Position numbers and translations under genes: made by a program
In this document: positions 4,933-11,609 of the stretch, piece by piece
Layout of the letters: every line of letters begins with the position of its first letter
Position numbering within the stretch: the first letter of the stretch is position 1
Notes under the pieces: generated by a model
Databases searched by the model: none
Told to the model about the DNA's origin: nothing
The model's input: only the letters and a program-made list of their open reading frames with translations
Source of the DNA: Candidatus Magasanikbacteria bacterium CG_4_10_14_0_8_um_filter_42_12
GTDB taxonomy: Bacteria; Patescibacteriota; Patescibacteriia; Magasanikbacterales; UBA922
DNA: 15,603 nt
Assembly: GCA_002784795.1 (NCBI GenBank)
Contig: PFLZ01000155.1
Location: 1 to 15,603 of the forward strand
Direction of reading: 5' to 3'

Positions 4933-7047
<2,115 letters not shown>

Positions 7048-7056
7048 GTTGTGACT

Positions 7057-7090
7057 CTCCCCCTTCGAAAGGGGGAGTTGGAGGGGGTTG
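7057..7090 (+). repeat. REP-like hairpin with G-rich tail, copy 1
   Basis: A 9-bp perfect stem, ctccccctt (7057-7065) and aagggggag (7069-7077), closes a three-base loop and is followed by the tail ttggagggggttg. The same stem, again with a three-base loop and a G-rich tail, recurs at 8829-8862 inside the MutS gene, and looser relatives occur at 15381-15474. It sits ten bases after the gyrB stop and directly before the DUF559 gene. It has no T-run and so is not a typical terminator. Confidence 0.8.
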
Positions 7091-7118
7091 ATTGCAGCAA
7101 GAAAAATTTTGGAGGGGT

Positions 7119-7655
7119 ATGAAACCACGCATTCAGAACAAAAAAGAATACCTACATATTCGAAAGCAACTGCGCAATGATCCTACCACAGCAGAACGTG
7201 TGTTATGGAAATATTTGAGAAATGTACAAATGGGTAGATACAAATTCCGACGTCAACATGGAATCGGCAACTACGTTGTCGATTTTTATTGTCCAAAACT
7301 CAAACTGATCATTGAACTTGATGGATGGATACATGGTGAAGAAGAACAAAAGAAAAAAGATGTTGTACGACAAGCGTATTTAGAAACACAAGGTTTTTTG
7401 GTTATCAGATATACAAATGCACAGATTCGAGCTGGTCATCACCCTCGATACAGACACCATGCAACTGGATGCATTGAAACAATATCTCGACCTCGATGGT
7501 ACACATGTACAACAACATACAAAACGACTGAATCTCGACTATCAGAATGCTCTCTTTTCTACTATCTACAGCATCAAGTCATTCCTCTCCCCTGTCGAAT
7601 TTCTCGATCTCGAACGAAAACGGTTTGCCTCCGAAGCCATGGCAAGCTTGATTGA
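7119..7655 (+). CDS. DUF559 (Vsr-like PD-(D/E)XK) nuclease-fold protein with foreign C-terminus
   Basis: DUF559 proteins share the fold of the very-short-patch-repair endonuclease; their biological role is not settled. With the ATG at 7119, preceded by GGAGGGG, the family part runs from MKPRIQNKKEYLHIRKQLRN through AERVLWKYLRN and FRRQHGIGNYVVDFYC to LIIELDG and GFLVIRYTNAQI. The candidate catalytic residues are the Asp of VVDFYC and the Glu and Asp of IELDG. The match stops at about 7430. The family normally continues for another dozen or so residues, but here the frame enters the MutS gene out of register and adds about 75 unrelated residues before the TGA at 7653. An upstream TTG at 7092 in the repeat is possible but less likely. 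It overlaps mutS by 239 bases. Confidence 0.8.
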   Translation: MKPRIQNKKEYLHIRKQLRNDPTTAERVLWKYLRNVQMGRYKFRRQHGIGNYVVDFYCPKLKLIIELDGWIHGEEEQKKKDVVRQAYLETQGFLVIRYTNAQIRAGHHPRYRHHATGCIETISRPRWYTCTTTYKTTESRLSECSLFYYLQHQVIPLPCRISRSRTKTVCLRSHGKLD

Positions 7656-9792
7656 GTTTGTTATTTCTCATGACAACGATGTCATCAAAGCATTGAAAAA
7701 ACCGACAGTCTTGGAAAACGAAACATTTGTCTATCTCGGCAACAATCCCCTCGAACAACTCGACATCACGTCCCGCGATCCACACAAAGAAACAGTCTTT
7801 TCTATCATGGACAAAACCGTCACCTCTATCGGTCGACGACTCTTATTTGAACGCGTGATGAACCCGATCCTACACAAAACCACGCTCGAAGCAAGATATG
7901 ATCTGTCAGATGCCGTCGCACCAGTTTATGCAAAAATAGAAATACATCTTCGCAGTGTCTACGACCTCGAGCGTATTGTCCGCCGTATCCACACAGGACG
8001 ATTGCACCCACTCGAGATCAATTTTCTATACGATTCACTCGTATCGGCAAGAGAAATAGACAAGACGCTTTCTTTTGAACAAACAAATTTGCATGACGAG
8101 CAAGAATCAATCGACGCACTCATTTCTTCTATAGAAAAAACCATCAACCTCGACATCTCTACGACCTGCATGCAACAAGAAATAAAAGAAAGTTTCTTTT
8201 TGCCAGGCGTCGATGCAGAGCTCGATGATTTGCAAGAAAAAATTGCAACAGAAACAGCAAAGCTTGATGCTATCCGTATCGTCATTTGTGATCTCATGAC
8301 AGAAAAACTTGGCAATGATGCAAGTGACTATGTCGATATAAAAAAACTGGATAAAGAAGGACACTATCTGCACCTCACAAAAAATAGATACGTCATGATC
8401 GCAGACGTACTCAAAAAACAATTTGTTTCGATCGATGGCAAGGTCCATGCATTCACAGATTTCTCGTACAAACTGCAAACAACCAATGTCAAAATTACTG
8501 GACCAGTCATCGATACTATTTCAGAAGCTATTACAGTATTAGAATCACGCCTCGTCGCGCGAGTAAAAGAACGCTTTGCAGATATGATCATGTTCCTCGA
8601 CCGTGAATATGCAGATCATATTGGAACTATAAGTAATACACTCGCAACAATAGACGTCGCACTCTCCAATGTAAAATGCACCCGTGCATATAAACTTGTC
8701 CGTCCGGAAATAATCGAACAAGACGAACCATTGCTCGAAATCACAACCCTCCGCCATCCGCTCATAGAACTGCGCGAACAGCACGGCATCTATGTCCCAA
8801 ATGATATTTTTTTCGGCTCAGCACGTCTCTCCCCCTTACCAAGGGGGAGGTCAGGTGGGGGTATCGAAGCCGAGAGCAATGAATCACACGTAAACTCTGT
8901 ATGGGAAAAAGAAACCCGCGGTATTCTCCTCTACGGTATCAATTCAAGTGGCAAATCGTCACTCATGAAAAGCATCGGCATCGCTGTCGTCCTCGCACAA
9001 AGTGGCTGCTACGTTCCAGCCACACACATGCGCTTTACACTGGTAAAAGAATTGTTTACTCGCATTGTCTCGCGAGATAATATCGCACAAGGTCTATCTT
9101 CCTTTGCCGTCGAAATGATGGAGCTAAAAAATATTTTCAACCGAGCAACCACCCACAGCCTCGTCCTCGGAGATGAAATCAGCCATGGCACCGAGACGCT
9201 TTCTGCAATTGCGATCATTGCCGCAGCACTCGGGCAGCTCCACGATATCGGTGCATTATTTTTCTTCACCACGCACTTGCATCAATTGCAGTCGCTTGCA
9301 CAAGTTGTCGAAATGGATCATATCCAGAGCCTCCATCTTGCCGTGCATTATGATGAAGCAAATGACGTGCTTATGTTTGACCGCACACTCCAGCAAGGCA
9401 GCGGCAGTAGCATTTATGGACTTGAGTTTGCACAGTCGCTCCACATGAATGCGACCTTCCTCACCAATGCTATGAATATCCGTCGTGAACTTGCCGGCGA
9501 ACTCAATGACACAGAATTAGTCTTGAAAAAACAAACAAGCAAATACAACGACACGCTGTATCTCACTCGCTGTGCCGTCTGCAACGCAAATGTTGAAGAT
9601 ACACATCATATCCGTGAGCAACACACGGCAGATGACACGAACCACATCGATCACTTTCACAAAGATCACAAATACAACCTCATCCCTCTGTGCAAAGAAT
9701 GTCATATAAAAGTGCACCAAGGGAAACTGAAAATCAACGGTTTTGTAAAAACAAGTAAGGGGTTTGCGCTGGATGTGGAGGAAGAGAAATAA
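7417..9792 (+). CDS. mutS: MutS homologue with C-terminal HNH nuclease (MutS7-like), 5' truncated
   Basis: This 791-residue protein has the MutS core and ATPase domains. The segment ETFVYLGNNPLEQLDI and SIMDKTVTSIGRRLLFERVM (about 102-148) starts the lever region. Walker A is GINSSGKS (507-514), Walker B is LVLGDE with Asp586-Glu587, followed by SHGTETLSAIAI and FFTTHLHQL. The C-terminus is an HNH/zinc nuclease domain: CAVC (719-722), the His pair at 730-731, Asn754, CKEC (759-762), His763 and His767. MutS with a C-terminal HNH domain is the mark of the MutS7 subfamily known from epsilonproteobacteria, octocoral mitochondria and giant viruses. The mismatch-recognition domain is missing. The frame is closed by a stop at 7381, so ATG 7417 (or 7459) is the first start, and the first few residues come from DUF559 sequence. 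A REP-like hairpin lies in frame at 8829-8862. Whether the product works is unclear. Confidence 0.88.
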   Translation: MHRFELVITLDTDTMQLDALKQYLDLDGTHVQQHTKRLNLDYQNALFSTIYSIKSFLSPVEFLDLERKRFASEAMASLIEFVISHDNDVIKALKKPTVLENETFVYLGNNPLEQLDITSRDPHKETVFSIMDKTVTSIGRRLLFERVMNPILHKTTLEARYDLSDAVAPVYAKIEIHLRSVYDLERIVRRIHTGRLHPLEINFLYDSLVSAREIDKTLSFEQTNLHDEQESIDALISSIEKTINLDISTTCMQQEIKESFFLPGVDAELDDLQEKIATETAKLDAIRIVICDLMTEKLGNDASDYVDIKKLDKEGHYLHLTKNRYVMIADVLKKQFVSIDGKVHAFTDFSYKLQTTNVKITGPVIDTISEAITVLESRLVARVKERFADMIMFLDREYADHIGTISNTLATIDVALSNVKCTRAYKLVRPEIIEQDEPLLEITTLRHPLIELREQHGIYVPNDIFFGSARLSPLPRGRSGGGIEAESNESHVNSVWEKETRGILLYGINSSGKSSLMKSIGIAVVLAQSGCYVPATHMRFTLVKELFTRIVSRDNIAQGLSSFAVEMMELKNIFNRATTHSLVLGDEISHGTETLSAIAIIAAALGQLHDIGALFFFTTHLHQLQSLAQVVEMDHIQSLHLAVHYDEANDVLMFDRTLQQGSGSSIYGLEFAQSLHMNATFLTNAMNIRRELAGELNDTELVLKKQTSKYNDTLYLTRCAVCNANVEDTHHIREQHTADDTNHIDHFHKDHKYNLIPLCKECHIKVHQGKLKINGFVKTSKGFALDVEEEK
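8829..8862 (+). repeat. REP-like hairpin copy 2, in frame inside mutS
   Basis: The stem ctccccctt (8829-8837) and aagggggag (8841-8849) is identical to copy 1 and closes the three-base loop acc. It is followed by the tail gtcaggtgggggt, in the same orientation as copy 1. It adds the peptide LSPLPRGRSGGG at about residues 471-482 of the MutS protein, between YVPNDIFFG and GILLYGINSSGKS, without breaking the frame. MutS proteins usually have a variable loop at this point. Confidence 0.8.
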
Positions 9793-9806
9793 AAAAATCT
9801 ACAAAC

Positions 9807-9838
9807 AAAAACAGCGCATGTTTATGCGCTGTTTTTTC
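9807..9838 (+). terminator. Rho-independent terminator after mutS
   Basis: The arms acagcgcat (9811-9819) and atgcgctgt (9824-9832) form a perfect 9-bp stem with the loop gttt. It is lengthened to about 13 bp by flanking A and T runs and followed by a T-run. This closes the gyrB-DUF559-mutS block. Confidence 0.93.
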
Positions 9839-9878
9839 TTCTCAATATATTTTTCACTCGAACAATATATAGTTGAAG

Positions 9879-9912
9879 GCCGGGACACACACACGTAGTG
9901 ATGTGCCCCGGC
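9879..9912 (-). terminator. GC-rich hairpin after the cysteine-repeat gene
   Basis: The arms gccggg (9879-9884) and cccggc (9907-9912) pair perfectly. After one mismatch, caca (9886-9889) pairs with tgtg (9902-9905). It lies 28 bases past the stop of the minus-strand cysteine-repeat gene and has the GC-rich character of that gene rather than of its surroundings. The T-run after it is weak (cttcaact). It probably came in with the gene and may have been its terminator. Confidence 0.5.
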
Positions 9913-9939
9913 AGTTTCTCCATCGGTTCCTACCGCGTC

Positions 9940-11595
9940 TTACTCGACGCAGCCCTCGATGGAGGTGTAGCTACACGCACCGGTCTCCCATTCGCAGGAG
10001 TCGGTGGTGCAGGGATCGTCGTCGTCGCACTTTGGCTGACCGATGCAGCCCAATCCCTCCACGCACGAACGCGTAGTACAGGAGTTATCGGTGCAGACAT
10101 TGGTCTGGTACTCGCAGGCGCCCCATGGCCGACAATTGCCTGTGTACTGAACCTGCTTCTTTTCCCCATCACACGTCAACGTGCTAGGGCAATCAGAAAC
10201 TTCAGCCTCGGGGTCGCAGGTGATGCACACGTCGTCAACGATATGCCCACATTCTCCGGACTCCCGACAGAAGTCATCGGTGCAGAAATTCCCATCATCA
10301 CACTGCCAGTCATACTGGCAAATGTCACTGACATCGTCACAGATGCCTGTGCTCGGGTTGCACTGCTGATTGGTGCCGCAGATGATCGGATCGTGGGTAC
10401 ACGCGCTGTTCGGCCAGTCACAGTTGTCAACCGTGCACGCATCACCGTCGTTGCACTGCGTGTAGTTGACGCACTCGACGCACCCGACCTCCTGCTTGCA
10501 GTGGAGCCCCTCGGAACAGAGCTCATCGCTCGGGTCGTTGAAGAACTGTGCGTACGTGCCATTCGCCTTGCAGCTATCCAGCGTGCAGGCGATGCCGTCG
10601 TCAGGCTGGAGGGGCATGTGTGTGCATCGGTTCAACGGCGTGCAGATATCTGTCGTGCACGCGTCACCGTCGTTGCACTGGTCGCTGGTCATGCAACAGT
10701 CGTCGATAAGCTCGTTCCGGCATCCGACGCCCTCCTGACAGCTGTCCGCCGTACAGAAGTTGTCGTCGTCGCACTCGAGCCACGTCTGCACGCAACCGTA
10801 CTTGACGTCGCAACCCGTGGCTGTGCACGTCAGGTTGTCGGCTGGACAGTTTCCGGCGTTCGGAATGTGCTGGCACTGTCCGTTGCTGTCGCACTGGTCC
10901 GCGGTGCACGCGATGCCATCATCACAGTCCTTCGGCGTCTCCTGGCACTTGCCCGAGACGCACGACGAAACCATGCACGGGTTGCTCGGTGCGCAATCGC
11001 CGTAGCTGGTGCCACCACACTCCACGACCTGATGCGTACACCCAATCTCAGGGACGCACATGTCGACAGTGTTCAGATCACCATCCTCACACAAAACAGG
11101 TACGAGCTGGCAGCCCTGACCCGGCACGCAGATCGCACCGTGGCAAGGGTCCATCGCCGCGGCGCACGCGTCGTTGTTGAGTTGGCTGTTGTCGCAGCCG
11201 ACTCCGGGGATGCAGACGTCCTTCGTGCAAATGTCGTTGTCGCCACACCCACGCGGCTTGTTCGAGCATCCACCGTTAGTCAGCTGATCCGGGTCGCACG
11301 AGTCGTACGTACACGGATCGCCATCGTCGCACGGGATGTTGTTCGGTGTGTGCACGCACGAACCACCGTAGCAGCGGTCAAGGGTGCAAGCGACACCGTC
11401 ATCGCAGTCTTCCTCGGCAGTGAATGCCGTGCACTCAGCCTCCGGCTCCGTCGTCTGGACGGTGTCAGTGGAGGAAGTCGTGTCGGTCTGCATGACCGTG
11501 TCCTGCGTGACGTCCGGTTCTTTGACCGGCGCGGTCGTGTCGGCTTCGCAGCCAACAACGAAAGTGAACAGGGCGATAGCCCAGAAACAGCGCAT
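9940..11595 (-). CDS. Secreted lipoprotein with Cys-rich CDDGxxCTxDxC repeats, GC-rich and probably transferred
   Basis: This 551-residue protein starts MRCFWAIALFTFVVGCEADT, a lipoprotein signal peptide with lipobox VVGC, so Cys16 should be lipidated and the protein displayed outside the membrane. A Thr/Asp/Glu-rich linker (about 17-50) follows. The rest is about a dozen and a half diverged Cys-rich units of 25-35 residues. The best have the core CDDGxxCTxDxC, as in CDDGVACTLDRC, CDDGDPCTYDSC and CNDGDACTVDNC. This resembles the Cys-rich (Dicty_CTDC-like) repeats common in myxobacterial and other deltaproteobacterial surface proteins. The repeats should be disulfide-bonded, and adhesion or a structural surface role is likely. 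Two hand-counted 60-base lines give 62% GC against 35-38% in gyrB and nusG. The ATG is preceded by AGGAGG five bases away, unlike neighbouring genes. Both facts point to a foreign origin. Confidence 0.85.
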   Translation of the reverse strand: MRCFWAIALFTFVVGCEADTTAPVKEPDVTQDTVMQTDTTSSTDTVQTTEPEAECTAFTAEEDCDDGVACTLDRCYGGSCVHTPNNIPCDDGDPCTYDSCDPDQLTNGGCSNKPRGCGDNDICTKDVCIPGVGCDNSQLNNDACAAAMDPCHGAICVPGQGCQLVPVLCEDGDLNTVDMCVPEIGCTHQVVECGGTSYGDCAPSNPCMVSSCVSGKCQETPKDCDDGIACTADQCDSNGQCQHIPNAGNCPADNLTCTATGCDVKYGCVQTWLECDDDNFCTADSCQEGVGCRNELIDDCCMTSDQCNDGDACTTDICTPLNRCTHMPLQPDDGIACTLDSCKANGTYAQFFNDPSDELCSEGLHCKQEVGCVECVNYTQCNDGDACTVDNCDWPNSACTHDPIICGTNQQCNPSTGICDDVSDICQYDWQCDDGNFCTDDFCRESGECGHIVDDVCITCDPEAEVSDCPSTLTCDGEKKQVQYTGNCRPWGACEYQTNVCTDNSCTTRSCVEGLGCIGQPKCDDDDPCTTDSCEWETGACSYTSIEGCVE

Positions 11596-11603
11596 TGTTC
11601 CTC

Positions 11604-11609
11604 CTGATG
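11604..11609 (-). promoter_or_regulatory. Strong Shine-Dalgarno of the cysteine-repeat gene
   Basis: Read on the minus strand the sequence before the ATG is caggaggaaca, giving a near-perfect anti-Shine-Dalgarno match at normal spacing. Apart from the DUF559 gene, no other start in the window has one, which makes this site informative about origin. Confidence 0.75.

Follow-up and report, generated by a model that had tools for sequence, protein, structure and literature searches.

A DUF559 nuclease gene joined to a truncated mutS in a Magasanikbacteria genome is the left part of a palindrome-ended, probably mobile element

Contig PFLZ01000155.1 of Candidatus Magasanikbacteria bacterium CG_4_10_14_0_8_um_filter_42_12 (15,603 bp were analysed, hereafter the window) carries a nuclease gene of the DUF559 family that runs directly into a mutS gene without its beginning. 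All the genes of this locus lie on the forward strand. It starts with an intact gyrB (4957-7047), whose DNA is 82% identical to that of one member of the same genus (G001) and 86% identical, over part of the gene, to that of another (G002), in the same order. A palindrome with a stem of 9 and a loop of 3 (7057-7077, predicted fold -9.6 kcal/mol, z -2.56) starts 9 bp past the gyrB stop codon, and is followed on the forward strand by a G-tract, GGAGGGGGTT (7080-7089). The surviving part of the DUF559 gene (7119-7427) opens with an ATG at 7119 that has GGAGGGG directly upstream; it sits in a mechanically called open reading frame (ORF) of 7092-7655, the tail of which (7428-7655) is mutS sequence read out of frame. 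The truncated mutS ORF of 791 codons (7417-9792) uses a different frame and is native from about 7428. It encodes MutS domain III (7750-8667, PF05192, 88.9 bits), the MutS domain V ATPase (8926-9492, PF00488, 144.9 bits) and a C-terminal HNH-like region of the form CxxC...HH...CxxxH (9571-9720), where the PF01844 HNH match is weak (E 0.27, under the Pfam cut-off) and the Cys and His columns are nearly invariant among the aligned proteins that reach that far.

The junction between both genes lies at 7425-7430. A first-pass annotation, made from the letters alone, had placed the end of the DUF559 similarity there, with mutS continuing in another frame and with the end of one gene and the start of the other both missing, and this description holds. 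The PF04480 match is strong (108 bits against a cut-off of 20.6) and covers only profile positions 7-95 of 109, so that about 14 positions and the C-terminal tail are missing; in a DUF559 search of the whole genome it falls at 7158-7433. The window copy keeps the residues that are invariant among 12 members from the same family, its last helix is gone, and its relatives diverge past the codon that closes the motif NAQI (7425-7427). Both congeners align to the mutS part abruptly from 7428, at about 81% DNA identity. In G002 and G001, gyrB and the intact mutS that follows it are separated by about 2.0 kb and 0.6 kb, respectively. Behind the gyrB stop codon the window has the palindrome and G-tract (7057-7089) and no right element end, G002 has two inverted palindromes with no DUF559 in between, and G001 has one palindrome with a G-tract. 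At the join itself the visible sequences have only a few bases in common; the lost DUF559 end of the window copy is not among the sequences compared. We searched the mutS locus with a DUF559 alignment profile, covering 1.5 kb to the left and right of the match as far as the contig reached, that is about 0.9 kb ahead of the mutS start, and the whole spacer in G001 and G002. In these stretches DUF559 was absent from all 11 other genomes with this mutS, the window standing alone, and therefore the pair is not fixed in the family. The annotation had left a choice between an insertion-deletion and a fixed, coupled arrangement to be looked for in related genomes: the former is supported by the intact, DUF559-free mutS loci of G001 and G002 and by the left element end that the window's DUF559 has in the absence of a right one, and the latter did not survive.

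The annotation was also right that the 791-residue protein has no mismatch-recognition domain, since Pfam finds MutS_III and MutS_V and no MutS_I. A homologue search with this protein found 653 proteins; among the 120 listed, MutS_I is carried by 118, the exceptions being the window protein and P0098. The latter (781 residues, 45% identical) starts at nearly the same mutS position, also without MutS_I, and may be a split gene or another truncation. The three nearest homologues, two of them named Candidatus Magasanikbacteria, have 969-972 residues and are 83-86% identical, so that the truncation stands once full-length relatives are aligned. One of them (P0002, 969 residues) is 86% identical to the window protein over 99% of the query, the homology beginning at its residue E205 and the residues MHRF replacing what precedes; hence 204 N-terminal residues are lost. 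As residues 23-201 of P0002 align with residues 22-177 of Taq MutS, these comprise domain I and most of the connector. No second MutS_I was found in the genome, in a search that did not extend to MutS2 and other MutS families, and a relocation of the domain was rejected, its sole weak match (20.4 bits) falling within what reads as a Mur ligase gene. The MutS7 label given to this gene seems plausible from the sequence: domains III and V, the conserved C-terminal Cys/His region and homologues from Sulfurimonas and Sulfurospirillum, among those at about 45% identity, liken it to the MutS7 type, from which it differs by the deletion of domain I and most of the connector.

What the annotation did not see is that the DUF559 gene here belongs to a repeated, palindrome-ended element, of which the window retains the left 370 bp or so out of about 480 bp, with C/G palindromic ends. 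DUF559 matches occur in 27 of the 46 genomes of the host family, with zero to seven in each. We tested the flanks of 54 of these 65 matches (11 were dropped, at 58 bits and below, as fragments or distant) for palindromes beginning with C, with a stem of at least 7 and a loop of at most 8, within 160-170 bp of the gene. Palindromes were found on both sides in 34 loci, upstream only in 10, downstream only in 8 and on neither side in 2, that is, on at least one side in 52 of the 54. Control windows in the same loci had a palindrome in 3 of 412 cases and never in both members of 206 pairs, and palindromes beginning with G were absent from all 108 DUF559 flanks. Two other small gene families served as controls; for each, we took 30 loci that rank best in their genomes, from a far larger number of matches. 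Neither had a single both-sided locus, and palindromes were found on 2 of 60 sides for GIY-YIG genes and 0 of 60 for four-helix-bundle genes. Contig ends shortened the flanks in a few of these control loci and in 2 of the 54 DUF559 loci. These results rule out palindromes as a general habit of small genes and show that they are specifically linked to DUF559. Nor are they a high-copy repeat: a 20-base pattern, which requires a four-base loop and thus passes over the three-base loop of the window, occurs in only 6 of the 46 genomes, and a 19-base pattern has three exact places in the window's genome (two of them in the window) plus four more with two mismatches, against one match for the pattern read backwards. 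Among the five DUF559 genes of this genome, L001 has simple palindromes on both sides, L004 and L005 are both-sided if a nested repeat is allowed in the loop, and L003 pairs a clean downstream palindrome with an imperfect upstream one. Repeats of the CTGCCGGCAGG or CTGCAGGCAGG type, nested in the palindrome loop in L004 and L005 or beside a palindrome in L186, look from their sequence like a second repeat family.

The two ends of an element resemble each other beyond what chance would give. Read outside-in, the ends of one element score 20.18 on average against 16.09 when partners are permuted (n=34, sd 0.32, reached in 0 of 5000 permutations), and loci from other genomes repeat the result (19.80 against 15.38, n=38, 0 of 5000). 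Within single genomes, too, the own partner outscores the ends of the remaining elements in 18 of 21 comparisons (20.4 against 15.9, Wilcoxon p 0.0002), so that genome base composition is not the cause of the matching, and in the end pairs that we printed from the host family loop and orientation often agree as well. The elements therefore have terminal inverted repeats, of which the window copy retains the left, and they are uniform in size, with a median of 475 bp and quartiles of 447 and 500 (n=73). The palindrome with an inner G-tract seen at 7057-7089 is a common layout among the 34 both-ended elements of the family.

Elements of this kind recur in many bacteria. From a scan of public genomes for DUF559 we kept the best 80 of 537 confirmed relatives, which leave 77 loci once three duplicates are removed (L073, L086 and L101 are the same places as L049, L042 and L055, and are counted twice in the control that follows, in the co-variation test and in the count of open elements given below). 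Palindromes lie on both sides in 38 of these loci, upstream in 8, downstream in 17 and on neither side in 14; for the 58 loci that we assigned by record title to groups other than Patescibacteria the figures are 25, 6, 14 and 13. The control gave a palindrome in 7 of 290 windows, and palindromes beginning with G were found once. Bacteroidota, Chloroflexota, Nitrospirota, Cyanobacteria and Proteobacteria are all represented among the both-sided loci. DUF559 is also present on plasmids (38 of 72,556 records); under a looser test (stem of at least 6), copies from Pseudanabaena, PCC 7002 pAQ6 and Azospirillum are both-sided and that of Synechocystis B12 has a palindrome downstream only. In 8 of 76 both-ended elements the reading frame of DUF559 continues without a stop across the two ends. 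A Pfam scan of 10 of the 11 public-genome DUF559 ORFs of at least 379 residues (L114 was left out) placed DUF559 beside or between other domains in every one: methionine synthase once (L100, MetH) and HsdR (L107, L115, L138), HsdM (L109, L127, L131) and type ISP enzymes (L139, L122, L108) three times each. DUF559 is in frame with its partner domains, at similar positions in the three HsdM and likewise in the three HsdR. Palindromes flank six of these long ORFs on both sides (L107, L109, L115, L127, L138, L139), L131 upstream only and L108 downstream only; L100 and L122 have none.

That these elements move is well supported by the comparison of filled and empty sites, three of them among four congeners (G000, the genome of the window, and G001 to G003) plus tsaD. 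The site of L042 is filled in G001 and G000 and cleanly empty in G003, and in G002 the left end and the first DUF559 codons remain, beyond which a deletion extends to the next gene; judged by the sequence, this resembles the way in which the window copy decayed. The site of L005 is empty in G001 and G003 and holds a remnant in G002. That of L001 is empty in G003, has other palindromes in G002, and in G001 is occupied by a different small gene. The latter (L162, G001:C77) is a four-helix-bundle (23S_rRNA_IVP) gene, found where G000 has its DUF559 element; this gene family is also patchy and multi-copy, with 35 of 46 genomes having it. We further examined 21 places, 20 of which were fetched where element ends matched, plus L184. 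A C-rich palindrome of the element type is present at 19 of them (L197 has none and L204 has another kind), and at nine (L185, L188, L189, L192-L196, L199) two palindromes stand about 75-120 bp apart, leaving no room for a DUF559 gene in what we call mini-elements.

Some ends lie in frame within other genes. ORFs that read as valS, tsaD, truB, mutY, a threonine-synthase-like and an O-antigen-ligase-like gene contain such palindromes, and G002 has a two-ended insertion in tsaD that is absent from G000 and G001. G003 bears a different, unrelated repeat in the same TsaD loop, which is short in G000 and G001, and the loop is a possible hotspot for in-frame repeats. The mutS gene of the window holds an in-frame end of its own: the stretch 8806-8898 (alignment gap from 8804/8805 to 8899) measures about 93 bp, against about 30 bp of different sequence in G001 and G002, and its palindrome (8829-8849, predicted fold -9.5 kcal/mol, z -2.52) encodes LSPLPRGRSGGG, a peptide that is absent from P0002-P0004 and has similar counterparts in the same loop of P0005 and P0006.

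Taken together, we hold it to be quite probable that 7057 to about 7427 is the left part of a mobile DUF559 element of about 480 bp and that one deletion joined it to mutS. Such an element would consist of two inverted palindromic ends around a single gene, the DUF559 nuclease, and would have entered behind gyrB, at a site where element remains are found in two congeners too. One deletion, reaching from the last helix of DUF559 to mutS codon 204/205, would then have taken out the right end of the element, the spacer and the first 204 mutS codons. DUF559 might cut at or near its own palindromic ends, or similar palindromes elsewhere, perhaps on hairpins in single-stranded DNA, and repair of the break would copy the element as well as gene-less mini copies, so that both spread. 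The deletion could be a by-product of such breakage or of ordinary decay. The part of the enzyme in this scheme is the one that we infer: DUF559 profiles match PDB entries 3hrl (endonuclease-like, E 2.7e-33) and 3r3p ('Mobile intron protein', E 1.4e-5), and PvuRts1I only weakly (0.015), which suggests a Vsr/EDxHD-like nuclease. Homing endonucleases are responsible for moving the very reading frames that encode them (PMC3943268). Given this and the kinship to nucleases of known structure, cutting by DUF559 at or near the ends, followed by copying repair, appears the most likely mode of movement. A broader proposal, in which a bacterium-wide class of minimal mobile elements has DUF559 as its one enzyme, a Vsr/homing-type nuclease set between palindromic hairpin ends and spreading through cutting and repair with no classical transposase, is tentative, and we would put it a little short of an even chance. 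If true, this class would have left its footprints as C/G palindromes scattered across many phyla, as in-frame insertions in essential genes and also as whole DUF559 domains in restriction enzymes and methionine synthase.

Several observations weigh against a DUF559 element that moves itself. Palindromes are on one side only in 18 of 54 loci of the family and 25 of 77 others, and on neither side in 2 and 14, respectively. Polarity is mixed: among the 38 both-ended loci of the public genomes, in 17 a G-tract lies on the inner side of the left palindrome and in 9 a C-tract on its outer side (the Azospirillum lipoferum plasmid copy L276, with a C-tract outside its left palindrome and no G-tract inside, shows the second end polarity). 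No consistent pattern of target-site duplication was seen across the congener sites compared; at the empty L042 site of G003, a single site, a 4-bp duplication can be read. Mini-elements are found in G002 and G003, both without a DUF559 match (E <= 0.001). Similarity between proteins co-varies weakly with similarity between ends (r 0.124, 0 of 2000 permutations) and, with close pairs dropped, r falls to 0.055, a value reached by 104 of 1000 permutations, which argues against a tight, specific recognition of the ends.

The last two points, together with the nested and adjacent palindromes around some genes, would fit DUF559 being mere cargo between two palindromes moved by another enzyme encoded elsewhere. 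We regard this as unlikely, albeit the most serious of the alternatives. The two other small gene families were never captured between two palindromes (0 of 30 for both GIY-YIG and four-helix genes), element size varies little, and palindromes accompany the same gene in unrelated phyla. As for the mini-elements, G002 has a decayed DUF559 element with its first codons left, so autonomous copies may have become extinct there. An assembly chimera, with DUF559 wrongly joined and mutS intact in the cell, is much less probable. The genome is a draft of 169 contigs, but the order gyrB, palindrome, mutS matches G001 and G002, the visible sequences share only a few bases at the join, and the same protein is listed with a longest contig of 9,003 bp, against the 15,603 bp of the window, which hints at a second assembly. 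Still less credible is an immobile DUF559 gene whose palindromes serve as transcription terminators or regulatory hairpins: stable hairpins do stand on either side of a small gene, but they lie upstream and not only downstream, no T-run follows 7057-7077 or 8829-8849, palindromes occur in frame within other genes, and congeners differ in whether they have an element. Finally, a conserved functional unit of a Vsr-like nuclease and a recognition-less MutS-HNH protein can practically be set aside, since DUF559 is at the locus in 0 of 11 other genomes, the frames are out of register and DUF559 lacks its last helix, even if the literature likens a Caulobacter DUF559 protein to Vsr and predicts a role in mismatch repair for it (PMC12907096) and the truncated mutS has no excess of amino-acid changes (35 unique residues against 37 and 52 in its congeners).

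The palindrome-ended element has partial likenesses among known systems. Caulobacter VsrA is reported to be Vsr-like and to have a DUF559 domain (PMC12907096), the same domain to which the window copy belongs by Pfam at 108 bits; the available text of that article treats it as a host repair enzyme and mentions no palindromic ends, whereas here the gene comes with palindromes. EDxHD homing endonucleases are alike in the homology of their catalytic domain (3hrl, 3r3p) and, possibly, in being selfish nuclease genes. PDB 3r3p is I-Bth0305I. That enzyme is described as extended and multi-domain, whereas the DUF559 proteins here usually have about 115-140 residues between palindromic ends. Genes for homing endonucleases often reside within introns or inteins (PMC3943268), and the gene-less mini derivatives also set the DUF559 element apart from them. 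REP palindromes are moved by RAYT, an HUH tyrosine transposase, and REP/RAYT and IS200/IS605 resemble our elements in having dispersed palindromes tied to one small gene; unlike with RAYT, elements of about 475 bp have room for little beyond the DUF559 gene. The gene linked to the palindromes here is DUF559, and in the copy from the window, the one place covered by this search, Pfam shows no Y1 domain. MITEs share two inverted ends, gene-bearing and mini copies, and in-frame fusions (PMC10969869), and differ in that here each end is a long palindrome and no consistent target duplication was seen. No known transposase was found by Pfam in the window copy, the other copies not having been scanned one by one; the both-ended elements, at about 475 bp, surround a DUF559 domain of about 100 codons, which bounds the room for one. 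Palindromic elements of Rickettsia, likened to ours by description only, also insert in frame in unrelated genes (PMC10969869), as we see in the window mutS and in the ORFs reading as tsaD, truB, mutY, valS and others; they are from another host, and the available part of that paper names no mobilising gene, whereas here there is a candidate. Two labels for the window copy were discarded, both resting on partial matches: a defence gene (PADLOC, DpdF at 28.5 bits and a methyl-directed REase at 20.7 bits) and a phage family (PHROGs, best 29.6 bits, unknown function).

What remains of mutS does not look decayed, with the reservation that synonymous changes are close to saturation. Over 765 comparable codons, dN/dS is 0.066 against G002 and 0.083 against G001, and the gyrB part gives 0.045 and 0.082 for comparison. 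The 35 residues unique to the window protein (37 in G002 and 52 in G001) go with 87 unique synonymous changes (104 and 103). The truncation is thus either recent or the remnant is still in use. Its expression looks doubtful from the sequence, as no clear ribosome-binding site is seen ahead of the ATG at 7417. Because the recognising domain is missing, mismatch recognition has probably been lost from the remaining protein, the ATPase and HNH-like parts being kept. Another congener, G003 (96% complete), has no match to this mutS, and for that reason mutS loss may recur in the genus.

Downstream of mutS, two long ORFs overlap on opposite strands, at 9898-11607 (plus) and 9940-11595 (minus). The minus-strand ORF encodes a Cys/Asp-rich repeat protein with DGDPCTYDSC-like repeats, and the plus-strand one is probably spurious. 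Rfam has no known RNA family at the palindromes, and its six sub-threshold matches all lie within 9741-9873.

DUF559 is in Pfam a family without an assigned function. Our literature search, with most subscription journals outside it, found no paper linking DUF559 with palindromes or inverted repeats, and the papers naming DUF559, going mostly by their titles and the beginnings of their abstracts, are apparently not about repeats. The DUF559-palindrome elements look like mobile DNA that may be undescribed. Inverted ends and mini copies are familiar from other mobile elements; a Vsr-like or homing-like nuclease as sole gene would be new, and an element moved by the nuclease alone would be of a new kind. 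Short C/G palindromes are scattered in many genomes with, to our knowledge, no known mobiliser. Their mostly two-sided link to DUF559 provides a concrete candidate, testable in the cyanobacterium PCC 7002 (Picosynechococcus), which has an intact copy, SYNPCC7002_RS14775, on pAQ6, and would explain the entry of peptides like LSPLPRGRSGGG into essential proteins. The pairing of DUF559 and mutS looks like a one-off deletion scar. In its own genome, the element coincides with the disappearance of the sole MutS_I domain, and mutations could as a result arise at a higher rate in this reduced Patescibacterium.

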